A stretch of DNA of 64,000 bases, from the NCBI GenBank assembly GCA_032358255.1, contig JAULBX010032035.1:62001-126000 (forward strand). The letters run 5' to 3'. Position 1 is the stretch's first letter, and every line of letters starts with the position of its first letter. Shown here piece after piece: positions 6,289-60,975 of this stretch. Source of the DNA: Heterotrichella gracilis. Its lineage: Eukaryota > Sar > Xanthophyceae > Tribonematales > Xanthonemataceae. The translations under genes were made by a program, and so were the position numbers. Below the pieces are notes generated by a model. It did no database searches, was not told where the DNA came from, and saw only the letters and a list, made by a program, of their open reading frames with translations.

Positions 6289-9200
6289 ATGGCTCGGTCG
6301 GGGGCGGATCTTTTGCTGTTACAGGTAAGCAAGTACTTCACTAGTAACGACACGATATCACTATAAAGCCTTCACTATCAGGCGCGTGGTTGGCGCGGCA
6401 CACATGCATGTATGCATATGCACCGGCGGCTTGTCTGAAACATAGTCGCACCTCGGCAGCGTTGACGGCACCGTAGTGCTCACCAGTCAGGGTGTATGTA
6501 CACAGATAAATGTGAAGTCACACAGCTCTTGCAGTGGACATACGATAGCCAGCGCGCCACATCTGGGAGCAACTCCACTGCAGCATATGCATGCATGTGG
6601 GGCATAAGCACGAACAACGGTGTGAGGCCGCCTAGCCGGCAGGTTTCGTGATACCACTGTCGCTTCACAACATGGACGTTTTCAACGGTACCCTAGGGTT
6701 CTCTTGACACCTAGGTTTTCCTGATAGGGTCACCACCAGTGGTGCTGCACTGCCCCTCACACGTGCGTCTCGCCAATTGACTGCGGTAACCATGTGTTAC
6801 CTCTGCTGTAATCAGCGCGCATTTCCCTTTTCCAGGGCAACATCAAGCGCGACCCTGAGGGCTACCAGGACGAGTTCCTTCAGCAGGTGGGGGCCCACAC
6901 TCAACCCTAAACCCTAACCCGTCGCACCGACTTCCAAACCCTGCGTGACACAACAGCTCACTTGGCACAGAGTGCTGCAATAGCTTCTATTTCCCATCAG
7001 GCCCACATATACGGCTGCATTGCCTGCGTCGTGGCGGTCGCACACAACGCATGCCACACGCATGTGCCTCCGCCGCTATACCCTCTGCACCACCCACACA
7101 CACCTTGTGCCTAGTCATTGCCACTGCTGCTGCCACCATTCCTGGTGCCGGACTGCCTGCCACCTCTGCCATGTGCGCACAGCACCCCACAGCTCATTGC
7201 TCCACAAGGGCACAGCCACTCACCAGACCTGCAGTCCCTGCATGTTGCGAGGCCTGGTGGCGACCCCCCCAACCCCACTTTATCCCACCCCCCGCAGTAC
7301 CGCCACTACCAGTCCCTCTCCTCCATCTTCAAGCTCAGGCCCAATGGGGATCCCAGGGAGTTCATCGAGCTGGTCAATTTTGTGGCACAGGTGGGTGGGG
7401 ATGGGGGAAGTCACGCATGGGCAGCAGACCATGACCTGCGTTGGTTGCTATTGTTGGTCCTGGAACAAAGGTGGTCTGGGATGGTACATGGACATGTATC
7501 CACCCACACCATGTGGTGGAGTCCTGCCCTGCTCGGCATGTGGGCCATGTCCCACAGTGCCCTCCAGCCACTACATCTGTGCGCTGACAAGAAGGGAGAT
7601 ACATGCCACTGATGCATGCCCGCCAAGTGGTCCATGTGGCAATCCCACATTGCGCCACATACTGCCTTGCAAACCATGCTGCCACATGGTGGTGCTGCAT
7701 GAGGGGTGGGCCATACTACCACTGCCAAGTTGGCCCATATTCCATGTGATTACTATTATTACATGTGATCCACTGGCATTCCATGCGATCACTTTCATTA
7801 CATGCTTTCCACACGGGATGGCGCCCCCCCCTTGCCATCCCCCGTCCCCATGCCACCATCCCCATGCCAGCACCCCCAGGACAGCGCCATCCCCATGCTC
7901 ACCCTGTCCATTTCCTCCCCTTAGGTCTCCCACTGCTACCCCTCCCTTGCGGGTGACTTTCCCCCCGAGCTGATGGATGTGCTGTCCACCCACGCCCCCC
8001 TGCTGGACCCAGCCACGCGCGTCAGCTTGGTCAGGGCACTCATACTCATGCGGAACAGGGGCCAGGTGAGGCCTGCACGGGGTTTTAGGGTTTTAGGGTT
8101 TCAGCCAGGGCACGCGGGACCTAGGACACTCGTTGCATTCTTAGGAAACCAAATGTTCAAGAAGTGCAGACCAGCTCCAAATGGCCCAAACTGCGCAATG
8201 GGTGGCTGCGATGTTGTAGCCAGAATCAAGTTGCAATGCATTGATGATGTAGTTGCCCGCATGTTCGGGGAAGAGCATGTGGCTCGCTCACTCGTTCCAG
8301 AAGAGAATGCCACCACAGAATAACAGAACGATGATAAAAAGCCCGCAGCAGGATGCCACCACCATGGTCCCACTCCTCCTCCCCACCGCAGGTCACCCCC
8401 CTGGACCTGCTCCCCCTGTTCTTCCGCCTGTTCCGCGTGCCTGACAAGGTGCTGCGCCAGCTGGTGTTCAGGCACATAGTGGCGGATGTCAAGGGGAGCA
8501 ACGCAAAGCACAGGAACGACAAGCTCAACAGGGGCATCCAGAACTTCCTGTACAGCATGATTCAGGTGGGTGGGCGCCGGAGAGGGATGCTGCAATAGGG
8601 TTTGCAACTGTGGGGTAAGAGTGTGGAGAGGACCCTAGCAATGTGGTTGTTGCAAAAGCACCAGCAAATGCTCTCACCCTCCTCCCCTTGCATACCACAG
8701 CATGTCATCAGCCGTGCATGTATGCTGTCCACTGCATCCACATCAGCACCGGCGCGTAGGAGTGAGGTGAGCATATGCAAATTGCATGGGGAGTATGGCA
8801 AGCTTGTCAAGTGTGCACAGCCACAGGACTTTTGCACCCCCCGCCCCTCACTTCATCATCATCCCCCATCAAATAATAAAACAAAATAAAATAAAAACAA
8901 ATGTGTGTTTCTAGATGTTATTTAGCTTTTGCTTGCTAGTTGAAGATGCCTGCTTATTTTGATTGTTTTTGGATGCGTGCAATCCCTCAAGCCTCCCACT
9001 CCTCCCCACGTTGCACCCACACCACGCCCCACTCCCCCCTTCACAGGATGAATCCGAGTCTGCGGCCAAGCGCTCCCTGGGCGTGCTCACTCAGCTGTAC
9101 CGCAAGCACGTGTGGCGGGACGCGCGCACAGTGAACGTCATCGCCAGCGCCGCGCTGTCCAAGAACCCTAGGGTAATGCTGTCGGCGCTCAAGTTCTTCC

Positions 9201-12200
9201 TGGGGACTGACAAGCAGGAGGACGGGGAAGGTGAGATGGCTTTCGGGTCTTAGGGGAGACCCTGCTCCCTGCTGTGCCCAAGTCCTGAGAATGACATGTC
9301 AAAGCAAATTGCCTTGGCAAATGGGTCACAGTCCCACCGATACCCTACCCACACCCTGGGCTATGAATTACTGGCGTCAACACCTTCTACCCGTTCATGC
9401 ATGCCTGGCACTCACACCAAAACCCTTGCGCATGGAATCACGGCCCCTCCACTTCCCACCCACAATTCCCTAGGCATGGCCCCAATAAACCCTAACAAAA
9501 GGAAACCCTGCTGTGCGCGTGCAGACAGCGACTCGGACCATGACGAGCCGCACCCACCCACGCCATCCTCAAAGGACCTGTACGGGGCAAAACACAAGGT
9601 GCGGGGGTGGGTTTAGGGTTTTGGGTAGGGACGGCGTTAGGGTTTTCTGGGTGGTGGTGGTATGCGGCGGCAGTGGAGTCACATGGTGAGGGTGGTGGAG
9701 TTTGGAGTGGGGTTTTGCATTGTTTTTGTCGGTTGTGGGATGATTGCTCGTGCCTGTCGACCCAATATATCTGACTATGGGTGCACGGTGAAATGTTACC
9801 ACACCCATCTCACACAGCCATAGACTAATGGCATCATCGTAACCTAATTTATAAACCCACGGACACGTGCACATGCACCTCACATGCCCACCTCCGCACT
9901 CGTACTCAACCACGCAGCGGCCCCCTGTGCCCGCTTGGTTTCTTATAAGAGTTGCCACATGATCCGAGCTGTTATGGCTTGGTTCATGATTACCCTACAC
10001 ATGATCAGCAAGTTACCGCGGCTCAAACACCCACCCACCCACCCACCCACCCACCCACTCCTTCATCAACCCAATACTCTGACAACAGGCGCACATGCTG
10101 GCATCCACCCACCACACTTCCCCCTATCCAAGCTGCTGTTATGGCAAATAAAAACCCACCCCCCTCCATGGTACCACCGCCAGCAAGAAGGAGAATCGTA
10201 ATAAAATACAATAAATGTTACTTTTCTAGCGTGAGTGAATTACTCAATTTTTCAGCGAGTGAAAATGTATACATTTTCCCAAGGGCACCACCGCCAGCAA
10301 GAAGAAGAAGCTTGCCAAGTACAAGCGCGCCATGAGCAGCGTGAAGCGGGCAACCAAGCGGGAGGAAGGCACGGTGCAGAGCTCCTTTGCGGCCATGCAC
10401 CTGCTGCAGGACCCGCAGGTGTGCTGACTAGGGTTTAGGGTACAGGGTTAGGGTCTTGGGGGGAGGGCACGGTGCAGAGCTTGTTTGCTGCAATGCACCT
10501 GCTGCAGGACCCCCAGGTGGGTTGACTAGGGTTTAGGGTTTTATGGTTAGGGTTCAACCAAATTTACTGTCTAAGTGGCTAGGGAAAGGGTGGGGGGCGC
10601 GAGGAGGGGTTCCATGCATCTGCTGCAGGGTCTGCAAGTGTGTTGGGGTGTGTTGGGGGGCGTTTGGCGGCGCGTTTTCAATCACATCGCGTGCTAATAG
10701 CCATGTTAAATGGCATGTGTCCGTGCGTAATTCAGAACTGCCCATTCAGCCCCCCAATCCTGCCTCGTGTTTCTGCAGACCTTTGCCGAGAAGCTGTTTG
10801 CCAAGCTGCAAGGCTGCAACGAGAAGTTTGAGACCCGGCTGGCGCTCATGTGCGTCATCTCGCGGGTGGTTGGCGTGCACAAGCTGCTGCTGCTCAACTT
10901 CTACCCATTCCTGCAAAAGTACATCCTGCCGCACCAGCGGGAGGTCACCCAGGTGCTGGCGGCGCTGGTGCAGGTGAGGGGCTAGGGTGTAGGGAAGGGG
11001 GTGTAGGGAAGGGTGTAGGGTTTTATTGAGGGTTTAGGGTGTTGGAGAAATATGAAAGTGGCGCTGGTGCAGGTGAGGAGGAGGAAATCCATGTAGTGCA
11101 CATGTGGCAAGCATTTGGCATGTACTTTGGTGCAGGTAAGGAGAAGCAACCCATGTGGTCTATATTAGGCATGTAATTCGGCATGCGCTTGGCACACCAA
11201 ATGTGCATGTGTGCCTCAATCCCTCCCACTCATCGCATCCATGTACAATTGACACCAACCCACACACCCAGCGCCACCCCTCCAGTCCCGCACTCGTACT
11301 CAACCACGCAGCAGCCTCCAGTGCCCGCCTGGTTTCTTTTAAGAGTTGCCACATCAAACGAGCTGTTATGGCTTGCTGTGAACCAACATGTGATCAGCAA
11401 GTTACCGCGGCTCGAGCACCCACCGCTCAACACCCAGCCATACCCATGCGCAACACACACTTCAAATACAAACATACTCTTACACCCATGTGTGCACCCT
11501 ACTCTTCAATCACTAATTCAACTCAAACCCTATCTTGATACCCTACACATCAACCCCTAAACCCTAACTTCCCACCGTCCACCCTACCACAGGCCTGCCA
11601 CGACCTCGCCCCCCCCAACACCGTACCCCTCAACCTTTAATACAACCTAAACCCTACACTGACAACCTGCATCCCTAAACCCTACGCCTCCACCCTACCA
11701 CAGGCGTGCCACGACCTCGTTCCCCCCGACACCCTTGCCCCCGTGCTGCGGCAGCTGGTTGACCAGTTTGTGAGCGACAGAGCTACCCCCGAGGCCATGA
11801 CCATTGGCATCAAGACAGTGCGGGAGATGTGCTCGCGCACCCCCCTGGTCATGACGTCGGACCTGCTACAGGTGTGTGGGGGGGTGGGAGGGGGGGGAGA
11901 GGGGTGCGTGTGGGTGGGACTGGAAAGGGAGGGGCGGGGGAGGGTGAGATGGAAGTTCATGCTAGGGATGAGAGGCTTGGTAAACCCTACACAAATACCC
12001 TAGCAAGGCACCGCTGGCACGGTGCCCGCTTCCAGCGACCACACGTCTACTGCCTCGCCCTGGTCCCTAAACCCTAAAACCCTAAGATCCTAAACTGTGT
12101 CCCCCCCTTCCCCGCAGGACCTGGCCATGTACAAGAAGTTCCGCAACAAGCAGGTTGCCTCCTCCGCCCGGGGCCTCATCACCCTGTTCAGGGACATTGC

Positions 12201-15135
12201 ACCCGCCATGCTGGAGAAGAAGGACAGGGGCAGGGGCGCCGACCTGGCTGCTGCGCCTCGGGAGTATGGCGCCGCGCACATACCTGACCGGGTGCTGGGG
12301 GTGGACCTGCTGGAGGAGGCCATTCGGTAGGGTGTAGGGTGTAGGGTGGATGGTGTAGGGTTCAGGGTGCTGGGGGTGGACCTCCTGGAGGAGGCAATAC
12401 GGTAGGGGTGTGGGGGTGTAGGGTTTAAGGTATAGGGTAGAGGGTGCTGGGGGTGGATTTGCTGGGTGAGGCCTTACGGTGGAGGAACAAATTCATTACG
12501 TTAGGTGGGTGACAGTATCCTTCATAGATCGCATGCCTTTGAGGCATATGAAATATGGGAGGTACATTTTCTGCCCAGCGCTGTAAACTGCTCATGGTGT
12601 GCATGGTGGAGGTGGGTACCAATCTTGTCCCTCTGTACTTGGGATGCACATACCCACCTGGTGCTACCTGAACTACAGGACTGCCAAAATTGGCAGCGAT
12701 GCATGCCATCTGGCTTGTGCATGGGGTGCACTTATTTAATCCGCTTTCACCTTTGCCGCAGGACTGGCAAGATTGGCAGCGATGGTGAGTTAGTGGAGAG
12801 TGAGCATGGCAGCGATTCGGACAGTGAAGGTGCGCCAGGGGAGGACAGTGAAGGGGGTGAGAGCGGGGAGGAAGGGGAGGAAGGGGAGGAAGGGAGCCAA
12901 GGGGAGGGGGAGGAGAGCGAGGTGGAAGGGGAGGAAGAGGAGGAGGGCAGTGGATCAGAGGGGGAAAGTGAGGAGGAAGGTGAGACGACTTTGTGGGACT
13001 TCCTGTGTGGTTCTTGTCTGTGTGGAGATCTCTAGGTTTGGGACTGTGTTGCCATCTGACACACCCCATTTACTGCACCTACCACATGCACCATTTCACA
13101 CCACCCACATGCCCCACCTCTCACCAGCCCCTTGCGCCACCTCACACCATCTACCTGCCCTGCAGGTTCAGAGCCCGAGTCAAGTGGGCGGGGGAGCCAG
13201 GGGGGCGACAGTGACGATGATGAGGAGGGGACTTCAGGGGGGTCGGAATCGGAGGGTGAAGGAGGGAAGGGGAAGGGTGCCAGCAAGAAGGAAGGAGCAA
13301 AGAAAGCGCTGACGCCAGGAAGGTGCGTCTAAACCCTAGGGTTTTGGGTCTAGGGTTCTGTTCTAGGGTGTGGGTTGTGAGATTTGCTCGTGATATAGGG
13401 TTGACATGACGGGTGTACTTGAGGGTGTGGCGCATGCTTTGAGTGGCTCTTTCCAGAATACCTTGCCGTTCGTGTTTTGGGAACGTCGCGCTATTTGGGA
13501 CGCAATGACAAATGTATACATTTCCAGTTACAATGCTGCAACAGCCAGCCACCAGCCAATGCAACCCTCCAGCGCCCCACATGGCTGCACCATATACCCT
13601 TCCATGCCGACAGCTACCCCTGGCCCCCCCTCCATGCTGACACCCGCCATACCCCTTGCAGCTTGCAACACCTCAAGCGCCAGCTGGCCGAGGCCAAGGA
13701 GAGCAAGGGGGGAGGAGGGGAGGAGGCAAATGGGGAGGTGGAGGCCGGGGTGCCCTTGGAGTGGGGTCGGATACTGACTGAGGATGATTTCAACAAGATC
13801 CGACAGCTGCGACACAAGAAGCTGGTGGGTGGCGCCTGTGCATGAGCATCAGTGCATTTTCAAGCCATGCACATAACAGCCGGTGTATTTGGAGGCGAAG
13901 TAGGGAAAGTGGGTGGACATCAAATGTGTGTCATCATTCAGGAATCAAGATCCAGCAGCTGCGACACAAGAAGCTGGTGGGTGGCACCAGGCGTGCAAGT
14001 CAAATTGGGTGCACATGCATGCAGCCATATATACAACAAGTGTAAGGGAAGACATCGAACTATTGTCAACAACCAGTGTGTTGCTGCATCCTCTATATGC
14101 ACATACAAAAAGCCTGGGTGCTAAACCCAACCTTTCACCCGCCTCCACCTCCTAATTACCGCCAGTTTACGCGTCCCCACCTAGACTGATCTCCCTCCCC
14201 TTCCCCCCTACCAGGTTGATGCAGCCCTGCAGCGGCACGGCGTGAAGTCTGCATCCAAGCGGCAGCGCGTGCGGGAGGCGGCCGAGGAGGAGGCGGAGGC
14301 GGCTATGGAGTTTGAGGTGGGGCAGGGGGTGGGGTGGTGGGGTGTCGGAATCGTGTGTGTGGGAGAGGGATTTGGGGAGCAGGTTGGGCAGCTGGGGTAT
14401 TCGTGGTGGGGGCTTGGCCGCCTGCCGATTGTAGGGGCCCACTTGTATGGGCGCGGATGGTGTGTTAGGCGGGAAAGGGGAGATTGTTGCGGGTGTGTAA
14501 CATAACGTTGCATGCTTGCTGGCAGTTGTCAGTTGTCAGCAGGGTAGTAGCATGGGGTAGTGTGGTGGAGGGGGCTTGGACAGGTACCTTGTTGTGTTTG
14601 CTCAAGGGGTGGTGTAATATGCAGGACGACCGGGAGGTGGTTGGTGAGCAGCGGGTTGCGGCCACCGCCCTGCAAGGGAAGCACAAGTGGCGCAAGAACA
14701 AGGAGGAGCGGATGGCGTCGGTGCTGGAGGGTGAGTCAGCAAGTCATATGAGCACTAGCCATACAGCCAGATGACCATGTCCAAGCAGTTGCTACGAAAG
14801 GAGTGCCCCCTCCTGACCCTTATACGTGAACCGTAAAGCAGGGTCTTGTCCACTCCGATTCAGGGTGCATGGACCCGCAAACTAGGCCATGAACCCTACT
14901 CCCTAGGCCCTAAACTAATCGTTCCGCCCTTTTTACCTCAGGCCGCAAGGACCGGCCCCAGTTTGGCGCCGCCGCCGGCCGCAAGAAGCAAAAGTCTGGC
15001 GGCAAGAGCAACCGCGAGAAGGAGCGGGGCAAGTCGCTGCCGCTGGCCGCGCGCCAGAGCCAGTTCAAGCGGCGCTCGCAGCTCAAGCGGCGCAAGGGGG
15101 GCAAGAACTTTAAGGGGAAGAAGGCGCGCAAGTAG
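6289..15135 (+). CDS. SDA1: SDA1 family 60S ribosome-biogenesis protein (SDAD1 homologue)
   Basis: Seventeen exons sum to 2400 nt, or 799 aa plus TAG: 6289-6324, 6836-6886, 7298-7390, 7925-8065, 8392-8565, 9047-9230, 9525-9598, 10284-10418, 10779-10973, 11704-11871, 12118-12326, 12762-12979, 13166-13322, 13662-13824, 14215-14316, 14625-14730, 14942-15135. Residues follow yeast Sda1 and human SDAD1 in order: IKRDPEGYQDEFLQQ, ALILMRNRG, NAKHRNDKLNRGIQNFLYSM, TVNVIASAALSK, FFLGTDK, LNFYPFLQKYILPHQREVT, EYGAAHIP, ILTEDDFNKIR, and a Lys/Arg-rich tail. An acidic Glu/Gly/Ser stretch fills about residues 490-560. SDA1 is a nucleolar factor needed for pre-60S maturation and export. The length compares with 767 aa in yeast and 687 aa in human. 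The start gives MARSGADLLLLQ, which joins smoothly to the conserved region. Several introns contain decayed copies of the adjoining exon edges, listed separately. Confidence 0.95.
8862..8905. repeat. A-rich simple repeat (AAATAAAA-like)
   Basis: Short A/T-rich stretch of AATAAAACAAAAT-like units inside SDA1 intron 5. It stands out from the GC-rich surroundings. Confidence 0.6.
9894..10037. repeat. Dispersed repeat, copy 1 (SDA1 intron 7)
   Basis: About 145 bp that recurs at 11288-11428 in SDA1 intron 9. Both begin CCGCACTCGTACTCAACCAC and both contain AAGAGTTGCCACAT, GAGCTGTTATGGCTT and GATCAGCAAGTTACCGCGGCT. They differ at scattered positions and by small indels. This copy runs into a CCCA microsatellite at 10029-10058. 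It has no coding frame and no obvious target-site duplication. A short non-autonomous element is likely but its class is unknown. Confidence 0.85.
10029..10058. repeat. (CCCA)n microsatellite
   Basis: Seven or so perfect CCCA units at the end of the dispersed repeat in SDA1 intron 7. Confidence 0.95.
10170..10193 (+). repeat. Decayed copy of the start of SDA1 exon 8
   Basis: GTACCACCGCCAGCAAGAAG here matches the first bases of exon 8 at 10284 (GGCACCACCGCCAGCAAGAA) and lies in the upstream intron, about 110 bp before it. The reading frame after it is lost. Confidence 0.75.
10464..10650 (+). repeat. Copies of the SDA1 exon 8 end and donor
   Basis: The end of exon 8 and its donor (about 10365-10440) recur at 10464-10541: GGCACGGTGCAGAGC, then ATGCACCTGCTGCAGGACCC, then CAGGTG and GACTAGGGTTTAGGGT. 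Both the real and the copied unit pass into the same telomere-like tail. A weaker third copy (GCATCTGCTGCAGGGTCTGC) lies near 10615-10635. The copies hold changes that make them poor coding sequence. Confidence 0.85.
11055..11142 (+). repeat. Copies of the SDA1 exon 9 end and donor
   Basis: The exon 9 edge at 10961-10980 (GCGCTGGTGCAGGTGAGG) recurs as GCGCTGGTGCAGGTGAGGAG at about 11060-11079. A shorter trace, TTGGTGCAGGTAAGG, lies near 11120-11137. A TTTAGGG-containing stretch separates the original from the first copy. Confidence 0.75.
11288..11428. repeat. Dispersed repeat, copy 2 (SDA1 intron 9)
   Basis: Second copy of the roughly 145-bp repeat found at 9894-10037, in the same orientation. 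The two copies share most of their length with point differences and a few indels, so they are old rather than recent. Confidence 0.85.
11580..11640 (+). repeat. Copy of the acceptor and start of SDA1 exon 10
   Basis: CCACCCTACCACAGG followed by CTGCCACGACCTCG and a C-rich stretch matches the real exon 10 boundary at 11690-11745, about 110 bp downstream. The copy keeps the acceptor AG. CCCTAAACCCTA-type sequence lies between the two. Confidence 0.85.
12366..12487 (+). repeat. Two copies of the SDA1 exon 11 end and donor
   Basis: The exon end at 12291-12330 (GTGCTGGGGGTGGACCTGCT, then GGAGGAGGCCATTCGGTAGGG) recurs at 12367-12413 with a few changes. It recurs again at 12439-12485, where the donor GT is still legible. 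The spacing is about 75 bp, filled with GTGTAGGGTTTAGGG-like sequence. Confidence 0.9.
13950..13992 (+). repeat. Copy of the SDA1 exon 14 end and donor
   Basis: ATCCAGCAGCTGCGACACAA followed by GAAGCTGGTGGGTGGC repeats the real exon 14 boundary at 13797-13832 almost exactly, 153 bp downstream in the intron. It keeps a usable GTGGGT donor. Confidence 0.9.
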
Positions 15136-15772: not shown

Positions 15773-15777
15773 TTACA
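15773..15777 (-). terminator. Candidate poly(A) signal TGTAA for the J-domain gene
   Basis: TTACA on the plus strand reads TGTAA on the minus strand, 319 nt after the stop of the J-domain gene. Confidence 0.5.
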
Positions 15778-16042: not shown

Positions 16043-16070
16043 CCACTACACCAGCGGCTTTGCCCTCCAG
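16043..16070 (-). repeat. Copy of the last coding bases of the J-domain gene
   Basis: ACTACACCAGCGGCTTTGCC here repeats the real gene end at 16094-16115, including the TAG stop (CTA on plus), about 50 bp downstream. AAACCCTAAACCCTA lies between copy and original. Confidence 0.85.
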
Positions 16071-16095: not shown

Positions 16096-19000
16096 CTACA
16101 CCAGCGGCTTTGCCCTGCGCGCCGCAGACACGATCTTGAACACCTCCTCCGCCTCAACCTGCACCTGGAGCTCAGCAGATTGGTGGCGGTCGGGGTGGAA
16201 GCGCAGCAGCGCGCGGCGGTAGGCGGACTCAGCGGCGGCGGGGGTGGGGAAGGGCCAGCCGTCTACCACCACGCCGAGCGCCTGCGAGGAGGTGGAAGCG
16301 GGGGGTGTTCGTTTATGCTTGGCCAGTGTGTGTGGCGCGCACAGGGTTGCTCTGCCCTGGTGGCCCAGGTAAATTGCCCAGGTTTCTGGTGGAAAGAGCG
16401 CGATAGTAATGCAACTGAACCCTGGAAATTGAACCCTGGCCCCACCTGCAGCGTTGACGCCAGGGTGGTGCACTTTGCCGTGCGGCGCTGCAGCCGCTCC
16501 GCGATCACCCCCCGCATGACGTCCTTCATGCCCAGGGTGTTCTCAGCTGCCTGCTGACTGGCGCGGTGCTGGGCCAGGCGGACCTGGTGGGAGCGGGGGG
16601 AAGGGGGAATTAAGGTGTGTGTGGCATGTGGGAGGGAGGGGGAGTAGGTCGCCATGATGCTGCAGGCGGTGGAGTCGATGGTGTGGCGCTCTTTGGCTTG
16701 AGAATCTACAGCAGCTGGGAACGCTGGGCAGCGGCCGATTACAACAGTAGAATGTACGGTATGGGCGTTCCCATGAGTGATGATATCGCGCCCCTGGGGA
16801 TGAGCAGTTTCATGATCCCAAGGAGGCATCCAGGCAGACCCTCGTTCATGTGCATGCCATGGCATGGCAGGGGATGGAATGAGCACAGCCCACACTTAAA
16901 CCCTAAACCCTACACCGCACCTGCACTCGGAGCTCCGCCTCATCTTCCTTGGTGCTACCGGCCCCCCCCTGGCGCAAACCCCCTGCGGCTTCCGCTGCTG
17001 ACGCGTCGCCACCTGGCCGCTCCCCATCCGCAACAGTGCCAGGTGGCGCATCCGCATCGTCTGCTTCACCGGTGAGGTCCACCACCCACTCGGGGGATGG
17101 GGATGGGTGGGGCGGTGGCTGGGGGGGGGCGGCTGGTGGCTGGTGCCATGTGCGCGCACCGGGGGCCGACCTAAAGCAGAGTGAAAGTGGGTGGGTGTGG
17201 TTGGTAACGATACCACACAACGAGGGGCAAAAGAAAGGGGGAGCTAGCGAGGGCAGGGTATGCGCAACCCCTCCCAATGGTGTAAGCAGTCTCAGATGAG
17301 AAGCGCATGGTACTGGTAGTGCAAGACTGGCAGTTAACTTATCTGTGTTGCAAGAATGGATAGAACTAATTATACTGTGCCTGCACCAAATCAAGCTGCA
17401 TGCAATATGCCTGCCATGCACACATGCTCACACTGTACAATTGACTGTTAATATGGATGTAATGCTGTGATGCATGTAATCAACTGCCACAAAATGAGGC
17501 CTGCCCCCACCCCATCCCCACACCAGCCCCACCCACCTTGGGATGTATGATGGCACAGCCGGCGCATGCCGCTTGAGCCCCCCACCCAGCCCCAGCCCCT
17601 TGCTCACGCGCTCAAGGTTGCGCACGAAGCTCTTAATGTTCTGACGGGCACCGGCATGGGTGCCTGTACCCCCACGGCTGGCGCCGCCCGCAGGTCTGCC
17701 CCCACCAAAGGAGTTAGCAGGATGTTGCCCCCCCGGCATGCTGCTGCCAGCCTGCGCTGGCGCTGGGCGAGGGTGTAGGGCTGCATGTGCTGGTACCCTT
17801 CCCCCACCATGGGGTGGCTGGGGGGGGGTGGCCGCACGTCCAGGAAACCCCCCGCCACTGGGGCGGGGGTGTTGGGTTGTGGCCGTACCCGCGAGGGGCT
17901 TCCCAGTACCTCCATGCGCCGCACCGTGCCCGTGCGGCGTGGGTGCGCCAGGTGGCGTGACCTTGACAGGGCGGGGCGGGACGAAGCCGGGCGGCATGCG
18001 CATGTGCGCTGTGCTTGCGCCAGGTGGCGTGCCCGTGCCGGGCTGAGGTGGCGCAGCGCTCCTGCTTGCGCCAGGTGGCGCTCCCCTGCCAGCCGCAACA
18101 GCTGCCCCTGTGCCAAAAGATGCGCCACTCCCGTGTGCACCCCCGGGTTGAGAGGGCGTGTCCCTGCCCGCTGTGCTTGCGCCATGTGACGCCCCCCTTG
18201 CAGGTACACCCTGTGTGCTTGTGCCATGTGACGCCCCCCTGCCAGCTGCGCCAGTGGGATGCGCCCCCGCCCTGCCATGCGCCCCACCCCTCCCGCCACC
18301 AGCGACCGGCCCTGGAGGACAACTCTCCTCACCCCCCCGCATCCCTTCGGCAGGCGCCACCGCCCCAGCCACACCCCCACCACCCGGCCGCTGCGCCGTG
18401 GGCCCTGTCGGCACATGAGGCATTGGTGAGGTCGCGTGGGTTGCTGCTGCTGCTGCTGTGGGTGGCGTCATGGGTTGTGCACCCCCCCTGCCCGCACCAT
18501 CGCTGGTATCCCCCAGGCCATTCCTGTAGCTAGTTTGACCCCCACCCAGGGAGGACCGGCTGCCTGTCAAGGACCCCGGCCGCGCCACAGGCTGCCCGCT
18601 GCCGGGGCGTGAGGCGGCGCCCCCTGGCGGCGCGCCATCGGCTGCTGCATGTGCAGGTGCGCCTCCGCCAGGCGCCGCTGCAGGGTCTCCCCCCGCCGCC
18701 GCTGCCGCAGCAGGTGCATGTGCGCCTCCCTCGGGCCATGATCGCATGCCCCTGGCCACTGGCGCAGCCGCTGCCGCTGCTGCATGCATGGCAGCCGCCA
18801 GGTGTGGGCGAGTCTCGGTCATGTTGGTGGCCACTCGTCGCACATGGGCCCCCAGCGCAGCGCCGCCATTCAAAGGAGCCGCGATGCCGGGCCAGGCCCC
18901 ACGCATGCCACCCAGCCCCTCCCCACGCCCTCGCTTCGACCGGATAGCATTACCCCCTTGATGCGGTGCGCTGAAGGGATGCCACCTGGCGCCTGCCTCC

Positions 19001-22330: not shown

Positions 22331-25300
22331 TCACACCCCAGTGCTGTTTGCGCCACGGCTCCTGGTGCTGTTTGCGCCCCGCGTTGCAATGCTGTTTGTG
22401 CCGCGCCCCTGGATCCTTATCGCCATGCCACCCAACGCGCTGCCAGCACCAGGCGTGGGTTGCCGCCGCCGCCGCCCCCTGCTCCGCCCATGCTCCCCTC
22501 CCCTGCGCTTGGACTCTCCCCCTTGCACCGCCACCGCCACCATTACCGATACCTGTTGCACCGCTAAACTGGTGGCGTTGGTGGCTGTGCGCAACCTACC
22601 CAGCCCCTCCTCGGTGGAACCCCCCCTCAGCTGCTTCTCCTCTGCAGCACCCCCCTTGGCCATTGGAGGGGGCCGAGGCCTCCGGGGCCCCACCCTGCCC
22701 GCCACCTTGACCGGCAGCTGCACATCAAGCCGGAATGAGCGCACAACTGCATCCATGGCCCCAAACAGCTGGTCCAAATCCACATCCAGGCACGATCCCA
22801 GCTTGAAGAAAAACTCCTCACACACGTGCGTGTCCCAAGGCGACAAGCGCTTGGGACAGGAGTGGTTTTCCCAGATCCCCAATTTTTCCGCGGTTGTCAA
22901 AATCTGGTACACCTCATTGTGTACCATGCCGTATGTGCGCAGCATCAGGCGCGGCTGCATGGTGTTTGTGATGTGGATGAGAGTGATGTTGTTTGGTATG
23001 TCCCTCACCAGCTCCTCAGGCCAGCGGTACAGCTCAGAGGGGTGGTCGCGGTGCACTATCTGAAGGTGGGGAAGGAGGTTGTGTTTTATCGAGAGTATTG
23101 CTTCTGTAGAGGGTGGCTGTACATGGGTAGAGAGGTAGGGAACCGGAGCAGTTAGGCCGGTATGCGCAGGGACAAGGTGCCCTGCAATGGGTGGAAATTG
23201 CAGCATGCCATGCAACATGTGCCCTGGCAACACGTGGCCTATCCGCCATGAATGCAGCACCCAAGGGCAATATCCCATCATGGGCATACCCCGTCACCAT
23301 GCAGCCCCGCCTCACCCACCTCCCCTGACCCACCTCCCCTGATATCCCCACCACAACCAGCATGCAGATCTGCTTACACGCAGCATGCTCACACACGATG
23401 TCCACACTATTTGCATGCTCAATACCTGTATCCCCACCGCATTGAGCGGCGCAAAGATGAGATTGGCCATCGCCGCCCCATGATGCCACATGACCACTGT
23501 GGCGTCGTTGTACACCTGTGCCTGCGCACGCAAGCTGAGCCATTCCATGTAGTGCAGGCTCACATTCACCGCAGCGCCGTACCGAGACTTGAGTCCAGTC
23601 ACTACTTCAGCCACATTGAGCATATTGCGCCCGTTGCGGTACAACCTGTGCAGGATATGGGCACCGGCAGGTTCGGGTTGGCAGGGTTATGGCCGCCAAA
23701 TCCAATTTTGTTGGCTCATGTATGCGAAGAGGTGGGCATGCCTGGGGTGCATCTGTTATGCGAGCTCCAGGGGATGCACATGTGCAAGGTGTAGGTTGGA
23801 GTGGAGCCATGGGTGGGTGGGTGCTGAATGGGGCGTATTGCAGGGGGCACAGGCTTTAAAGCAGGCAGTGGTGCCTGTGTCTGTGGCGGCAAATTGCAGA
23901 AATATCCATGCCCTGCGTATATTTATGTGCATGTGAAGCCAAATCCTATGGTGGTTGGTCTGCATGTGAATGGACCACGCAGCAAGTTGGCGGGGGATAA
24001 TCACGTCCAATTGAGCCAGTTTAAAAACCCCCCTACCTGTCAATGACCTTGATTTTGATGGGGTTTGCCAGGGCCTGCCTTCTGGGGTCGAATCCTATGC
24101 AGTCGCTGATGCGCGTGCGCCAGGAGGTCATCATGGCCTTGGAGGGGGGGCGGCGGAACTGGCTGCAGAAGGGGAGAAGCTTGTAATCAAAACACGTAGA
24201 AGACCTGATACCCATGCACAGGTAGGCGTCGGGAGGATTATTATTTCATGTTGGCACACACAGCATGCATTGTACAGCCACTCATGTGAGCCCTATGCAC
24301 AATATGCTCTGCCGGCAGGCCATTGTCACGACAGTCTGACAGGTCGAGCAGAGCAAACACACTCGATTCCCCACCCCAGCCCGTCTGGCCACTCACGATG
24401 GGTTGCAGTGCCCCTGGTCTGCCCTGCACTCCGACCCCCACCCCACCAGCGCCCTGCTGATGAGCACAAACTTGCTCCTGAAGGCGGTGTGGTTCAGGTG
24501 CAGCACGGGGTGGTTCACCAGGCAGGACAGCGCGTCCACACTGGAGGGGTCTAGTGGGTGATCAGCGTGCTCTCCTTTCACTGGGTTGATCATCAGCAGG
24601 CGCATGCGGCTGGAGGGGTCATAGCTGGAGGGGAGTGGGAAACAATATACGAAGATGAGGATGGTTCCCAAAAACCAGATGAGGATGGTGATGGTCCCCA
24701 AGCAATGGATCAAGATGAGGATGGTCCCCAAGTAATAGATGAGGATGGTGATGGTCCCCAAGCAATATATCAAGATGAGGACGGGGCCCAAGCAAGGTGC
24801 AGATGCGATAGTGGTGTGAATGGAATAAAAAGATGCAAATATACATGCATACCCCCGGGGGACCCCCCTCCTGTCTCCACACACCCCACCGCCTCCCCTC
24901 CCACCCACAGCCCGCACCTGCAGCTTTTAAAATGCTTGCACACGAGGCTGTGCAGCGTGGGTGCATACTCTGCAAACACGTGGTAGTAGTTGTGATAGAA
25001 GGTAAAGTAGCTGAGCACCGCTGATTGGATGCGCACGATGGGCACGTTGGCCCGCAGGGGCAGCGAGCGGGGGTTCACAGGGTGGATGATCCCCAGGCCG
25101 CGGCTCTCAATCTCAGCTTTGTTCAGGCTTTGTATATTGTGGGACCAGTTGCCTGCAGAGGTTAGGGAAGGGGTGTTGAGCGTTTTGAGGAGGGAGTGCT
25201 GGGAGGTGCAACAAGGTGGGCGTGGTGTGTGGGGGTGGGAGGGTGGGAGCCAGGAAGGTGCAGGTGTGCCAATTGATGGGATGGCACCAGCCAAAGAGCA

Positions 25301-36312: not shown

Positions 36313-36592
36313 GAGACAGAGTGCTGCTACTCTGGCAAGTACATGATGTCTAACAACTACACCATGCAGTGAATATGACAACCAGCAAGGCACAACAATG
36401 TTTACAGCTGCACTTGGGCGTGACATTGGTACATTTTCTGTATTGTTATGCAATATTCCCGTGGGCTAAATATTCAAAATAAGGCAGATTCATATTCGCG
36501 GCTACTGTCAGCGCTAGCACACAAAGTTGTAGCGTCAGCAATACTACAAATAGCACACAGGATCTAAACAGCGCCGTCAGTTCAATTCACCT

Positions 36593-36751
36593 GCACTGTG
36601 CTGAGAGCAGTGTAGCTTCATTCCCATTGAGCCTGTTATCGTATCTTGCGTTTTCACATAAACGAACTGTTTAAACAACGAACTGTTTAAACACGCAAGA
36701 TACGATAACAGGCACAGTTGGAATGAAGCGACACTGCTCTCAGCACAGTGC
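36593..36751. repeat. Long imperfect hairpin
   Basis: A 58-bp left arm, 36593-36650, begins GCACTGTGCTGAGAGCAGTG. It pairs with the right arm at 36694-36751, which ends ACTGCTCTCAGCACAGTGC. The arms differ at a handful of positions. The 43-base loop contains the direct repeat ACGAACTGTTTAAACA twice. The right arm continues as tandem unit 2 and recurs in unit 3 at 39829; the left arm is an inverted extra copy. Confidence 0.9.
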
Positions 36752-41640: not shown

Positions 41641-44600
41641 TGTGCGCCCTTATGGCGCCATGCACTCCCGCAAGGTGATGTGGACTCAAAAGCCTGGTCC
41701 CAGGGGGTGGTGCAACCTTGTGCCTTGCTGCAGCCATGTAGACTTTGCAAGGCAAGGTGCGGGAAAGGCCATCATGCCCTTGTTTAAAACCCCTTGCCCA
41801 AAGGGATGATGCCTAGCTGCCTCCTTGGTCTGTGCGCTTTGCAAGGGTACGGTGCGCCACCCTGGCATATACGTAGGTACCTACGTATGCCGCACACAGT
41901 TCCATGGATGCCTGCACATTTACAGTCACACGCCTGCAGATTCACAATTGCGCTCCTGCACAGTACCAGTAAATGGTTCACACTGCGTCATCTGTTCCAT
42001 TGGTTGCGCTGCAGGACCAACATCGCCTACAACCGATTCTGGAGTGCGCGCAGCGGGGTGGCCTCCCTGCAAGCGCAGCTGGTCAGCGCCTGCTGCCAGG
42101 TGCGCACAAAACCCTAAAACCCTGGCACTACCCTTCCACGCAACCCTCCATGCTGGGTGGCAGAGCGCGCACGCCTCCATACACTCATCCCACCACATGT
42201 GTCACCCCACGCGCCCGTTTGGGGCTGCTCACCACGCTCACCCTGGCAGTGCTCCTCCACACAAACCCTCCACGCTGGCCTCCCTGCAATCACTCCACCA
42301 GCGCACTGTGTTATGCATCACGCTGCACCCTGTGTTTCCTGAGAGGCTCCGTGTGCCTCACCCCTCATGGCAGACACATTCCCATTCCCGCCAATACACA
42401 CCCTGCACTGGCAGCCCCGCAACCCTAAACCCTAAACCCTAAATTGGTGGTGCATGGCGCTTACAAAACCCCACCCCCCACCCCCCACCCGTGACACCAC
42501 CGTCATCCCCCACCCTCCCCAGGCCATCACCTACGACCGCTGGAACCTGCCGCCCGCCACCCCCACCACGCCCCCCACCGCCCTCCCACCCCCCACCCCC
42601 TCCAGCTCCGCATTCTGCAACCGCCTGGTCCACCTCACCTCACTCCTGGCAGCATGCGGGCTGCAGCACCTGCGCCAGGACTGGGAGTGCGACAACTTGA
42701 GCATGCACAGGCCGGAGCAGCTGCCCCCGCCAGCGGTGAGTGGGGTGTGGGGAGAGGGGTGGGGGTGGTGCGGGGTACCAGGGGTGTGTGGGGTTTGAAG
42801 CCGGTGTAGGTGTAGGCCCACCGCTGGGACCAGTGGCCTTTGTGGAAATTGTGGCAATGCTTTTTGTAGCAATGGCATTCCAGCCAGTTGGCCCCGCCTC
42901 AATCATGCTGGGGGGTGCAGGATAAAATGCGGAGTTGGAGCCCTGGTGTGTGTGGAGTGGGGTTTGTGGTGCGCTGTGAGGGAAGGGGATGGTGCGTGCT
43001 ACGCAGGATGTGTGATCATGTAACTACTGTGTACGGATTTTGCTTTCCCCCACTTGCCTGGCCCCCCTCAGGACTCTGCCGCCCTGCGCCCCTCTGTGTG
43101 GCACATCTAAAGCTTGTGTACTACTTTTGATTGCATCCTCCCAGGACTCTGCCGCCCTGCGCCCCTCTGTGTGGCAGTGGATCCGCCACAGCCACAGGTT
43201 CTTCGTGCTGTGGACCGAGATTGGCACGTACAAGCGGTACTACAGGTGAGGCCAGGTGGTGTGTATGTATCGTGGGGAAAGGGGGTTGGGGGGAAGACTG
43301 CATGGCAGCGGTTTCAGAAGTGGTGGGTGTGCAGGGGCCAGCATCAGCCGTCATGGTGGGAAATGTGTGTGGAGGGGTGGTGGTTGGTGGTGGGAGGGAG
43401 TGGGCAATGCTGGTGCCAGTGGAAAGGGAGGGAGGGGAGGGAGGAGGTGGCAGTAATTGTATTTTATGGTGGTGGAGGGGCTGTGGCACATTTTGTATAG
43501 CGGGAGCAATTCCATTTCCCCCCTGTGCTCACCGCATTGCCCCTCCTTCCCCATTCTTCCCCTGCAGTCGCTCCCCCTTGAGCGTGATAGGGGGGGTGAG
43601 CCCTGCAGAGGTGGGCCAACTAGAGCGTCAGGCGCTTGATGCCGCACCCCCCGGGCACCACCTGCGGCGCATGCGGTCCATGGTGTCTGGCAAGGAGTTC
43701 ACCATACAGGAGGGGGCGTGGTTCACCACAGGTGGGTAGGGTGCAGGGTAAGGTTTGCAACAGGTGGGTTGGGTTTGAGGTAGGGTTCACGACAGGTGGG
43801 TTGGGTTTTGGGTAAGATTCACAACAGGTGGGTAGGGTATGGCTGTTGAAATGAGTCCTGCGTCCCAGCTAGGGCATGCATGTGGAAGTCCTACTGCATG
43901 TGCATGAGTGTCTGTGTGTGCCGCCAATGGCTAGGTGGGACGTGGATTGCCGCTCAGCTCCCACCTACACCCTACACCCACTGTACACCAAGTATGTTGT
44001 CAAGGACAATAAGATAGTTATAGGTCCTATTACTCTCTTATTGCGCTTGCTGTCGCCTGGCAACTGCATGCCCCTACCCTCTACCACATTGCCCCCAAAT
44101 GCACCCCCTTGCATTTTTCACCCCTTTCCCTCCCACCCCCCCCAGGCAGCTACGCCCCCTTTGGCCCCGACCGTGTGTACCGCGTGCTTGGCTGGATACA
44201 CCAGCTGCTGGAGGTGCGCCACAGGCAGGGGGGGCTGCAGGTGGAGGGGCCGCTGAGGGCAACGCTGTACACCCTTATGGCGGGGGCGCTGCAGGCATTC
44301 GAGCAGTGCAGGTGCGGTGCAGGGCAGGGGAGGGGTCCTTGTGTGATGTGGCGATGAACGGGGTGGCGATGAATGGGGTTGGGTGCTGAGTTGCTGGCTG
44401 GTGGTAGGGCATGGAGGGAAGCGGTTGGGGGCAGCAGAAGCGCACCGGAATTTGATACATCCCAGCATGTACTGCATCCACGGTTTTAAGGTATTTTTTA
44501 AGTTAAGGGTTTGGCGCATGCACTTATGCAGCATCCAAACCCTGAGTGCTGCATGCCATTGGCAGCCCAGCGCTGCACTCAAGCCCACACGTGCTCCAGC

Positions 44601-46414
44601 CTCTTCAGCGGGCCCCCTCCCCTTCCTTTTCCCTTCCCCTCCTTCTCCCCCCCTGCAGGGCCCTGTCCGAGACCCAGTTCCCCTTCCCATGGGCCCAGGC
44701 CATCAACTTTGTGCTGGTCATGTTCACACTCACCGCACCATTTGTGGTGGTGGCCTCGCACTACAGCATCGAGCTGGTAGTGGTGGTGACATTCATCACA
44801 ACGCTCACCTACTGGACGGTGGAGGAGGTGGCTCGGGACCTGGAGGACCCGTTTCTGTATGAGCCTAATGACCTCCCCTTGGCTCAGCTACAGGTGGGTG
44901 GTCGAGGGGGGGGCCGGGGGGGTAGCGAAGGGCACTAGCTACAGTGGTGGTGGGGTTTAGGGTTCAGGGTGCAGAGTTTAGTTTGGCACATGGCAGCAAC
45001 TGCAGTATGGAGTTGGTGGCGGCGGCCACATATATCACCATCCTCACGTATTGGTTAATGGAGGGGGTGGCAGGGTCTTTGAGGAACCATTCCTCTGACA
45101 GCCGTATGACCCTGGCTCAACTGCAGGTGGGTGGTGTGGTGTGGGGGGGTGGTAGGACATATGGTGGCAAATAGAACAAGGGTGACTGCTGATCTGGCCG
45201 CAAACTGAGTGCAAGACTCTTCAGATGCATTCAACTACCTCGTGTGCACAGCCTTACACTTCAGGTGGTGGGTGCATCTGCACCTCCAACTCAAGGATTG
45301 ATAGCATGGAGGGCATTCTGTATGATGAAAGAATCTTTAATCAATAAATTGTTTTTTTTTAATAATGAATGCTTTATCATTCATATGATTTAAAATTCAT
45401 CCAATTATTCATCTATTTGTTTGGATATGGAACACCAGGCTCAGATTAGACAGGGCAGGCTGATAAAGAGTGCCGCGCCCCTCTGCCCTGCCCTCACCCT
45501 TGGTCATGTCGCTGCAGTTTGAGTTCAACCAGCGCCTCCTCACATGCGCCAATGCGGCGCTGAACCCTGTGGGGTGGGGCCCCGCCATCAGGGGGGTTGC
45601 GTCGTCTGCCATTGCCGCTGGCAATGGTCCGGTTTCAGAGCTGGAGCGCTACGACTCCATGTGGCGCACACCCACTGAGGGGCACTCGCAGGGGCTGGCA
45701 GGTGGGAGGAGTGGGGGGCATGTGGAGGGGTTGGAGGGGGGCAGCATGCACTCTGCAATTTGGCCAGTTGGCCAGTCGTTGCAGTGGCTGTAGCATGCGG
45801 TCCAGGGAGCAAGCATGTGGCAATAACAAGAGATCATTGCATGGGGCCGTAGCATGTGGTGGGTGGAGATGTGCAGCAAGGTTTTGCGGCAGGTGGATGG
45901 CTGGCAGGGCATGCAGGGATCATTGCCCTGCTGGGTAATGATTCAGGGGCTGCACTTGCATCACACATGCAGGCAGGCGCGCCTGTGTGGTGCATGGGTG
46001 TGCAAATATTGGCAGGTATCGCCCATGGCCACTTGCACTGCACATCACCAAACGCGTGCACGCCCACGATGGGCCAGCCGCGGCGCCTGTGCCGTGCACT
46101 GGGGGTATTCCGGTTGCATTTGCCTTGCATCCACGCATCCACGTGGCCACATGCCATGCACTTTTGTAACATGCCATGCTGTTGGGGGGTAAGCACACGC
46201 TGAGTGGGTTGGGTGTGTTGCAGGGAGCCAAGGGGCGCCATCCCTTACCATGGCAATGGATGGTATTCCCGAAACAACGGGGGTGTTGCGTGGCGATGCA
46301 GTAGTGGAGGTGGACGACGTGCGGGTGCCGCTGATGGGTGCAGCCACAGAGCGGGTGCAGCAGGATATGTACTACAGCACACACAGGGAGGAGGGCGGCT
46401 TGGAGAACGTCTAG
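41401..46414 (+). CDS. Bestrophin / UPF0187 family anion channel
   Basis: Nine exons, 41401-41612, 42015-42099, 42523-42735, 43145-43245, 43568-43731, 44146-44311, 44659-44893, 45518-45701 and 46224-46414, give 516 aa plus TAG. The N-terminus is MITYSKVLWGFPTFLRWYGS. Hydrophobic segments near residues 28-48 (ALLSSGLAVALFYTMVDYL) and 55-69 (YQLFATLVGFSVVFR) lead into TNIAYNRFWSARSG, the family's FRTN.AY.RFWEAR block. A second membrane pair lies near 327-370, followed by EEVARDLEDPF (369-379) and YEPNDLPL (381-388), diagnostic of the bacterial and plastid-type bestrophins. These form pentameric chloride or bicarbonate channels; in Chlamydomonas, thylakoid members serve the carbon-concentrating mechanism. 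No clear plastid transit peptide precedes the first membrane segment, so location is open. The last 120 residues are not conserved. Introns hold copies of exon edges. Confidence 0.92.
43066..43106 (+). repeat. Copy of acceptor and start of bestrophin exon 4
   Basis: CCTCAGGACTCTGCCGCCCT followed by GCGCCCCTCTGTGTGGCA is identical over 34 bases to the real exon 4 start at 43145-43178 and keeps an acceptor AG. It lies 73 bp upstream and then diverges (CATCTAA). Confidence 0.95.
43732..43855 (+). repeat. Array of copies of the bestrophin exon 5 donor
   Basis: The real edge is TTCACCACAGGTGGGTAGGG. Three further copies follow at about 37-bp spacing: TTTGCAACAGGTGGGTTGGG, TTCACGACAGGTGGGTTGGG and TTCACAACAGGTGGGTAGGG. 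Each keeps CAG/GTGGGT and is linked by GGGTAAG or TTTGAGG-like sequence. Confidence 0.92.
44001..44049. repeat. Small fold-back element in bestrophin intron 5
   Basis: CAAGGACAATAAGATAGTTA TAGG-type arm, 44001-44024, pairs imperfectly with 44025-44049 (ends CTCTTATTGCGCTTG) with no loop. Ends match the other two fold-back elements. Confidence 0.75.
44937..45145 (+). repeat. Decayed copy of the second half of bestrophin exon 7 with donor
   Basis: The exon 7 segment at about 44755-44900 recurs at 44990-45135 with many changes. Matching words include ATCGAGCTGGTAGTGGTGGT against ATGGAGTTGGTGGCGGCGGC, CTCACCTACTGG against CTCACGTATTGG, and GGCTCAGCTACAGGTGGGTG against GGCTCAACTGCAGGTGGGTG. The copied edge keeps the donor. 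The copied frame still reads without a stop over much of its length, so it might be used as an alternative exon, but it lacks an obvious acceptor. Confidence 0.85.
45325..45420. other. A/T-rich block in bestrophin intron 7
   Basis: About 95 bp with a T10 run and repeated ATTCAT/ATGAAT words, including AATGAATGC facing GCATTCATT-like sequence. It contrasts sharply with the GC-rich flanks and may be the trace of an insertion. Confidence 0.5.
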
Positions 46415-49310: not shown

Positions 49311-51129
49311 TCACTGCGTGATGAGCGACATGTGACCCTCCCTCACAATCTCCTCCAAGTTCAGGTCCTCTACCTCTCCACTGGTGTAGGTGGCCCTGCA
49401 CACCACCACACACGCCCCCTCAACAGTGCACCACCACCGCACTCCAACTGGACGTGCAAAGAGAAGGACCAGCTCATGACAAGCAGTACATTGCGACTTA
49501 CTTGGCTGTCTTATTCCTGACGTTGACGCTCTGGATCTCAATCAAGTACCACAGCTTGTCATCAGGCCAGTATAGCTGCGGGCAACCCCAGGTGGTTAGC
49601 AAAAACCACCACAGCAGATTGGCAGGCTTAGCAGAACACCCCAGGTTGGCAGACCAGTACCCACCTCAGCTTTTCGGCCCTTCAGGGCCACACTGACGTC
49701 TGAGCTTGTAAGCAACCTCCCTGTCGGCAGTGGGGAGTCAGACGACTTTGCCACTCCACCCATGCCTGACCCCGGCCCTGTGCCTGGAGGCGCGCTGCTC
49801 ATGTACTGCTCCTGCACACCGAGGGCCACTGTGAGTGGCACACCTCACAAGGGGTCGAAAAAGGCAACCCGGCAGCCACCCAACCAAAGCGTTACCTCTT
49901 CACGCCTCCTCTTCGCATGGTTGGGTCCGCTCCTGTGCTTGAGGTGCCTGCCCGTCACCGCCTCGTACAGAGTTGGGTGCTGGTTGATCAGTTTGAACAG
50001 TTGTGACCTGCGGGTGGCGTGGGTGCGTGAGTAAATTCCACAGACGCCAACAAGCCAAGGGGCGGTCGCCATACCACAATCAAGCTGCGCACCTTCCAGC
50101 ACTGTCCAGCTTGGCTCCGTAGTAGAAGGACACAGCCATCAGCCACGCGTCACTGTGTACTGCGACCAGCCCGAGCCAGTCCTGCACACCGACATGTGGG
50201 TTGTCGGCCAGGCTGCTCAAAATCTGATTAATTCAGCAAACCTGCCCTCCTCTAGCTCACACTCGCAGCCATAACACCCACAAAGCTGCTCAGACAAGGG
50301 CGCCATAGCGCCTGCCCATTATAGCACACAACGACACCATGACCCTCACAGGCCAAAACTTGCCTTCCGTTGCATCCCGTCCCTCGCGAAGTTTATCCCT
50401 AGGCAAGGCTCTGGAAGCTCTGGTGGTACCTGTAGACGTACAACCAGCTCAGGGGCGCTGGATAGACGCTGGTTGGCAGCCAAGCAAACATGGAATCGAG
50501 GCGAGTGAGTAAGCATGTCGTGCACGTTGCCACTCCTGGCCTAAGAGCGAGCGTGTGGACAACACAAAACGCTTCAAACTGGCGAAGCAACAAGCAGCTC
50601 ACCTCCTCAGCAGGTATGTCCACCACCCAGCTCCCATCGCTCTCGCCTGCAGGGCACACACGGGGGTCATCACATGGCAGTTTGTGCGTCGTCATGTGCG
50701 TGGGATGCTTGCACGGCTCGCGCCCCTTACCATAGAGGCACAGATTCTCTCGCTCTGGATCGCACTGCTGGTAGAACTCGTCAACTTCTGCAATGCGCGC
50801 AACACTCGGCTCGTCAGTGCCCGTCAGTTTGGCTGACGATCAGTGGTTTAAAGAGAGCAAAGCTTGCGTACCCTCAGTCAAAGCTCGAACCAGCCCAGTG
50901 CGCCTCCTGGAGAAATCCTCGTATATCTCGCCCACACTGCACAGCCCCAGGCACATAGGTTTCATTGGCACCCGTGCAGAGGTTCAAGGTGGCGATCAAC
51001 AGCCGGTGGACGCGGCAGCAGCAGGCTGAGCACGACGCCAATGTCGTGGTTTTTGCTCGGCTACAGAGCTTGGCATGATGTCACAACGGGACAGGTTATA
51101 TAAACACACCTTCTTGGGTGGTCCGCCAT
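49311..51129 (-). CDS. Alfin-domain protein with C-terminal Tudor-like domain
   Basis: Ten exons in minus order, 51129-51110, 50936-50872, 50787-50731, 50646-50603, 50417-50364, 50181-50093, 50007-49896, 49811-49665, 49575-49502 and 49395-49311, give 248 aa plus TGA. Residues 7-130 are an Alfin (DUF3594) domain in full order: [93 protein letters not shown] linker rich in Ser/Gly/Pro follows. In land plants the protein would end in a PHD finger that reads H3K4me3. Here residues about 186-248 carry no Cys/His zinc ligands and read [20 protein letters not shown], then [20 protein letters not shown], the aromatic and acidic pattern of a Tudor-like fold. The intron after 50364 has a GC donor (AAG/GCAAGT). 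Likely a nuclear chromatin protein. Confidence 0.9.
50362..50363 (-). other. GC-AG intron donor
   Basis: Exon 5 of the Alfin-Tudor gene ends CGGAAG and the intron begins GCAAGT. The next exon starts with DWLGLV, and the join RDGMQRK-DWL is exactly what the family has, so no GT donor is needed. Apart from the C at position 2, the site matches the consensus perfectly, as is usual for GC donors. Confidence 0.85.
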
Positions 51130-55029: not shown

Positions 55030-55056
55030 GCCCCGCATCACAGCATGTCCGCCACA
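55030..55056 (-). repeat. Copy of the PRMT4 gene end
   Basis: CCCCGCATCACAGCATGTCC, the complement of the last codons, stop and following bases of the PRMT4 gene at 55057-55076, is duplicated immediately downstream in gene sense. Confidence 0.85.
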
Positions 55057-55063
55057 CCCCGCA

Positions 55064-60975
<5,912 letters not shown>

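Follow-up and report, generated by a model that had tools for sequence, protein, structure and literature searches.

The 64-kb window analysed here (i.e. the whole stretch of DNA under study) raises the question why its introns carry short copies of the edges of neighbouring exons, with exon ends repeated in the downstream intron and exon starts in the upstream one. The initial annotation had read this fixed polarity as the mark of a new process, acting near TTTAGGG repeats and lengthening introns by tandem duplication. Gene models were built by hand, from reading frames and GT-AG borders, for 12 multi-exon genes and one gene end; the multi-exon genes comprise 85 exons and 73 introns (mean intron length 320 nt), with reading frames that are open throughout. 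The models of the KH gene and of GT61 gene A stop short of the 5' end (KH exon numbering may differ from the earlier one through a possible further 5' exon), and that of GT61 gene B was followed only as far as 27613. A Pfam scan of 10 of the 12 proteins named SDA1, PRMT, bestrophin, GT61, Alfin, PC-esterase, PDDEXK_6, a tRNA-binding protein and an SSB-like protein, and the best match of the PRMT (PRMT4 gene) among solved structures is CARM1. For the KH-gene protein the scan gave no family, and 'KH' is the label of the initial annotation, as is 'J-domain', whose protein lay outside the scan. Alfin and PDDEXK_6, along with the TTTAGGG repeat, would point towards a green alga. The GT61-type glycosyltransferase genes (B matched GT61 in Pfam, A was assigned by eye from its translation) form a tandem pair with matching exon lengths, at 22331-25885 and about 27377-31285. 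The Alfin gene, on the minus strand, has one GC-AG intron (50362-50363), and introns of at least 150 nt contain 35% G just 3' of the donor and 40% C just 5' of the acceptor.

The presence of exon-edge copies in neighbouring introns is confirmed. In a Smith-Waterman comparison of 84 of the 85 exons (one J-domain exon of 2,978 nt was left out) with all 73 introns, strong direct repeats (p<1e-4) were found in 12 of the 144 adjacent exon-intron pairs of the 12 genes, compared to none of the 144 adjacent inverted pairs (the best, at 1.4e-4, being a C-rich tract) and 11 of 11,976 non-adjacent comparisons. The model p-values overstate significance for low-complexity pairs (p<0.001 is reached by 44 of 10,690 pairs from different genes), and comparisons between classes were used instead. 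At a raw score of at least 42, seven of the 144 adjacent direct pairs remain, versus none of the 144 inverted and none of the 11,976 non-adjacent ones (maximum 41). All 12 strict copies obey the polarity described in the initial annotation and lie within 16 nt of the predicted exon edge. Six are exon ends in the downstream intron, at distances of 0, 0, 0, 0, 1 and 16 nt from the end of the exon, and six are exon starts in the upstream intron, offset by 0, 0, 0, 0, 2 and 5 nt from the exon start. At weaker p-values than 1e-4 the rule fades: two of eight weaker adjacent direct matches (p 1e-4 to 0.02) touch an edge, namely the KH exon 3 start and the SDA1 exon 9 end, and these weaker matches behave as chance would. 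The adjacency and direct orientation expected of short tandem duplication are both found, with copies 26-283 bp apart. Across the window, near repeats (at most 1 kb apart, score at least 30) give 55 direct rows versus 5 inverted, in rows that are not independent (several per array, with the J-domain coding repeats included). All 12 strict events are confined to three genes, which hold 36 of the 73 introns; neither GT61 gene has an exon-edge copy at p<1e-4 in the Smith-Waterman search. Introns that carry strict copies, 11 in number, have a median length of 409 nt, versus 301 nt for the others.

The strong exon copies are private to their own loci, both in the alignments against all introns and in the raw-score comparison, and the view that introns grew here by local, direct tandem duplication suits the data better than introners do. 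It is highly improbable that the copies stem from the insertion of introners or other transposable elements, or from AGGT-type intron birth by exonic tandem duplication. In the AGGT model the end of the upstream exon is placed at the 3' end of the intron, whereas the donor copies in this window lie at intron positions such as 98 of 360, 75 of 435, 152 of 390 and 233 of 624, each with its own donor; the copies thus sit at the wrong end of the intron, and the model was rejected. Introners, for their part, have been found mainly in fast-evolving lineages, green algae among them (PMC9860276), but insertion of such elements was discarded because of the local nature of the exon copies: no strong exon copy recurs in near-identical form at many unrelated introns, and the window self-search gave, among the longer near repeats, only one intron-intron pair, of 142 bp.

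The initial annotation also described each copy as a short direct repeat across a splice site, which holds for the clearest cases. The intron half of the repeat was assessed for 12 events (both edges of SDA1 exon 8, SDA1 exons 9, 10, 11, 12 and 14, KH exon 4, bestrophin exons 4 and 7, and PRMT4 exons 8 and 13), with 126-144 composition-matched pieces from other introns as controls for the four clear events. In these four of the 12, all in SDA1 (plus strand), the intron halves are collinear and better than every control. The exon 8 donor edge (10360-10418) recurs in intron 8 (10458-10516, 52 of 59 exon nt) within a 98-bp tandem unit of which TTTAGGG-rich intron is a part (equalled by 0 of 144 controls), and the exon 10 acceptor edge (11689-11733) recurs at 11578-11622 in a tandem unit of about 111-124 bp with CCCTAAA (0 of 142). 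The exon 11 donor edge has two further copies (12290-12480) in a 77-bp tandem unit with GTAGGGT repeats (0 of 144), and that of exon 14 (13794-13836) has its copy in intron 14 (13946-13988; 0 of 126). In this last event the exon part (40 of 43 nt) is far better kept than the intron half, which matches in only 74 of 130 columns, a difference that exceeds the expectation from neutral decay.

In two further events the intron half is suggestive: KH exon 4 (4 of 128 controls as good) and SDA1 exon 12 (9 of 144), an acceptor edge (12759-12784, copy at 12676-12701 in intron 11) that was absent from the initial annotation. In the remaining six the intron half does not rise above the other-intron controls. 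These are the SDA1 exon 8 acceptor (10284-10309, copy at 10170-10195 in intron 7, 24 of 26 nt), where the stretch between the copies is not homologous and 123 of 132 controls match the intron half, the SDA1 exon 9 donor (10961-10979, copy at 11060-11078, with TTTAGGG between), bestrophin exon 4 (68 of 144 controls), bestrophin exon 7 (19 of 128), and PRMT4 exons 8 and 13. For bestrophin exon 7 the homology may have been lost through age, while the other five are not plain tandem copies. Mononucleotide shuffles had overstated intron-half homology, and the composition-matched control kept four events and demoted three (SDA1 exon 12, KH exon 4 and bestrophin exon 7, for which the shuffle comparison had included part of the exon copy). 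Conversely, the idea that all gapped events are filler insertions was rejected, because the intron halves of SDA1 exons 14 and 10 proved collinear. SDA1 introns 7 and 9 also share a direct repeat of 142 bp (9894-10035 and 11288-11424, 84.5% identity) that is unlinked to exon edges.

Most of the individual cases proposed earlier stand. In SDA1, both edges of exon 8 and those of exons 10, 11 and 14 hold at p<1e-4, with exon 12 added; exon 9 matches in 19 of 19 nt at the edge but is short, with only 13 nt of exon (p=0.015). In bestrophin (plus strand), exon 4 (acceptor edge 43142-43176, copy at 43069-43103) and exon 7 (donor edge 44760-44925, with an old copy of 70% identity at 44999-45155) stand, while the exon 5 donor is a certain tandem array of a 32-bp unit present about 3.7 times (43720-43838), of which only 12 nt, at the start of the first unit, are exon. 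Partial copies of bestrophin exon 1 were seen by eye at 36214-38440, upstream of the full gene at 41401, and amid them a 62-bp inverted repeat (36593-36654 and 36690-36751) flanks a 16-bp tandem unit. All four PRMT4 edges (minus strand) hold at p<1e-4: the exon 5 end (58863-58885), copied at 58752-58775 in intron 5 with CCCTAAA between (p=2.6e-5), the exon 8 start (57619-57644), aligned with a copy at 57902-57927 in intron 7, the start of the last exon, exon 13 (55251-55283), copied at 55362-55394 in intron 12 (p=5.1e-5), and the exon 10 donor, a minisatellite (56510-56871) in which the exon end and CCCTAAA are repeated, with copies in intron 10. Bestrophin exon 5 and PRMT4 exon 10 are thus further arrays that cross a splice site. 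The KH gene (minus strand) does not bear out its three proposed cases, none of which reaches p<1e-3 singly: the exon 3 acceptor has a repeat array in the upstream intron (34198-34419, p=1.6e-3), and exons 4 and 5 have weak copies at about 33977-34017 (29 of 41 nt) and about 33550-33563 (13 of 14 nt).

It could be argued that the copies are functional, i.e. alternative donors, acceptors or decoys kept under selection. Among the copies examined for this, six of the eight donor-side copies start with GT and five of the nine acceptor-side ones keep the junction AG, and the bestrophin exon 4 copy is identical in 35 of 35 nt despite unrelated flanks, a 38-nt unrelated stretch separating the two copies. 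However, extension to the inner junction runs into a stop in 13 of 16 cases, and GT or AG is absent at the offset used in 6 of 16. KH exon 4 alone stays open with a length divisible by three, its inner acceptor adding an open in-frame insert of 46 codons (33977-34017), the sole such case among the 16. Each copy holds one exon edge and hence makes no cassette exon; a cassette or alternative exon, with both splice sites and an open frame, was set aside on account of the stops and the single edge per copy. Selected function is therefore very unlikely to account for the copies. At SDA1 exon 14 and bestrophin exon 4 the copy has diverged less from the exon than neutral decay would predict given the state of its intron flanks, a pattern in keeping with filler insertion or with conversion by the exon.

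It seems probable instead that the exon-edge copies are ordinary short direct duplications in and around genes, which survived across coding/non-coding borders where the protein stays intact. Short direct duplications would arise in and near genes. At a donor, e|i would become e|i e|i, and since the unchanged protein needs the first donor, the spare e would fall in the downstream intron; at an acceptor (i|e becoming i|e i|e) the last acceptor would have to serve, with the spare e falling in the upstream intron; and at a stop codon the first stop would still give the old protein, with the spare copy past the stop. The spare exon edge would then decay in the neighbouring intron, leaving it longer by one unit per event. 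Exon-internal duplications, which alter the protein, would mostly be lost, and intron-internal ones would carry no exon mark; a search for exon look-alikes in introns must therefore show polarity. In other words, the polarity is fixed because selection keeps the protein intact, and does not characterise the mutation itself. Duplication and protein-preserving survival would together account for the direct orientation, the adjacency, the position at edges and the polarity, and 'original' and 'copy' are labels of use, not of history. The earlier interpretation is thus upheld as regards local tandem duplication, but not in deriving a special process from the polarity, which is forced by protein preservation.

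In fact, like duplications also cross stop codons and lie inside introns. The case at the end of the J-domain gene (minus strand), earlier counted with the splice-site copies, has a perfect copy (16096-16116 repeated at 16046-16066, 21 of 21 nt, with CCCTAAA between), but it crosses the stop codon and not a splice site, with the spare copy past the stop. The same holds for the 26-bp tandem at the PRMT4 stop-codon edge (minus strand; 55057-55079, with the copy past the stop at 55031-55053); both stops were placed by translation of the gene models. A gapped intron search gave five intron-only arrays with a score of at least 36, in GT61 gene A (60/30-bp units, 24652-24795, minus strand), PRMT4 introns 1 and 2, SDA1 intron 12 and bestrophin intron 2, while one in SDA1 intron 3 scores 35, just under the threshold. 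At equal threshold, edge events number 11 versus 5 intron-only ones (11 of 16); neither count includes the arrays next to weak edge cases, which lie in bestrophin intron 5, in KH intron 2 and in SDA1 intron 9. An apparently strong excess at edges (12 versus 2-4) was given up when this gapped search added the intron-only arrays. Under uniform placement, simulation predicts an edge share of 0.38-0.59 for units of observed or greater length, and the observed share has P=0.013-0.25 under predicted shares of 0.38 to 0.57, an acceptable fit to random placement for units of the observed spacing. For units of 50-80 bp the simulated share is only 0.18-0.34, against which an edge count of 12 of 16 has a P of 8e-7 to 1e-3, and the edge excess would be real if the true units were that short.

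The odder part of the pattern is the telomere-like repeats at intron edges. Nine-mers of (TTTAGGG)n, which we take to be the telomere repeat of this organism, cover 20.7 bp per kb of intron, compared to 3.0 outside the modelled genes and 1.3 in exons. Telomere-type blocks are intronic in 37 of 44 cases, as against at most 3 intronic blocks for each of 19 permuted repeats with equal letters, so that internal telomere-type repeats exceed chance. A block lies within 60 nt of the donor in 14 of 22 block-bearing introns, where random placement predicts 5.5 (p=2e-4), whereas near acceptors the number is close to expectation (8 of 37 blocks versus 5.9); intronic blocks occur in both orientations (15 G-sense, 22 C-sense). 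The link with the copies that the initial annotation suggested is moderate: copy-bearing edges are richer in TTTAGGG, with odds ratios of 2.3-7.4 and p from 0.0004 to 0.15 depending on the cut-offs, in tests that control only partly for the greater length of copy-bearing introns. A strict block lies between the copies in only 5 of 12 strict units. The patches hug donors with or without a copy, and this is stronger than the association of TTTAGGG with copies.

These observations, together with edge events that are somewhat above prediction (and clearly so for short units), lend some weight to a process aimed at the borders themselves, in which breaks or telomerase action, concentrated where transcribed genes have their splice sites, would duplicate exon edges and leave TTTAGGG patches behind. 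Such a process is nevertheless unlikely, as 20 of 26 telomere-marked edges (120 nt, strict set) have no copy, a strict block within 120 nt is missing at 6 of the 12 strict copy edges, the edge excess hinges on unit length, and stop codons are crossed as well. It is likewise doubtful that, in this lineage, telomerase-linked repair of breaks preferring exon-intron borders seeds TTTAGGG beside donors, duplicates the edges and forms a main engine of intron growth.

Judged from the window sequence alone, the events appear to be tandem duplications. Local direct duplication, polarity and, in some events, collinear units are seen in the sequence; the duplications themselves likely go back to error-prone repair at staggered breaks or paired nicks, through fill-in and joining of complementary overhangs. 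Such repair would yield copies in tandem, some of them with filler. Addition of telomeric repeats to part of the breaks would place TTTAGGG in or next to the units, and extension of one overhang by telomerase before fill-in would yield e-(TTTAGGG)n-e in either orientation, although slippage during replication, from one intronic TTTAGGG tract to another, would explain this almost equally well. In rice, insertions in the 10-1000 bp range can take the form of full or partial tandem duplications, for which paired nicks, end joining and break repair have been invoked (PMC7407515, which cites a rice paper by Vaughn and Bennetzen, 2014, with 'commonly' in its title). In mammalian cells, fill-in by CST-Pol alpha, the telomere fill-in machinery, at complementary 3' overhangs makes small duplications (Schimmel 2021, PMC8355091), and where telomeric repeats were inserted at breaks, the flank had been duplicated at 6 of 130 loci in rodents and at 4 of 25 in primates (Nergadze 2007, PMC2246262, Table 1).

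Splice junctions would in this way act as a trap for short tandem duplications, in which one copy is fixed as exon and the other decays alongside, so that the starting sequence of each event stays readable and a polarised record of intron lengthening is left. The donor-side telomere patches, if upheld genome-wide, would tie break repair to gene structure. A search of viral and prokaryote contigs found no relatives of the window sequence, and a literature search, judged from titles and abstract openings and with most subscription papers outside it, gave no recognised description of exon-edge copies with telomeric repeats in introns. Several known systems come close. Lehmann (2010) reportedly described intron gain through tandem duplication of a proto-splice site, where tandem duplication likewise alters intron structure; that system makes a new intron from an exon, whereas here an existing intron grows and its outer sites are kept. 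Introners (Gozashti 2022, PMC9860276) too change introns in algae but form dispersed families, while every strong copy here is local. The interstitial telomeric sequences of Nergadze 2007 (PMC2246262) are likewise short repeats of telomere type that lie at internal sites and in some cases have a duplicated flank. Those of the present window differ in being concentrated in introns beside donors and of the plant/algal type TTTAGGG. Break-repair short tandem duplications, both the rice insertions cited in PMC7407515 and those of Schimmel 2021 (PMC8355091), are like the present ones direct, adjacent and tens to hundreds of bp in size, some with filler, whereas the copies described here, for which we infer a break origin, read as old, decayed and astride splice sites.
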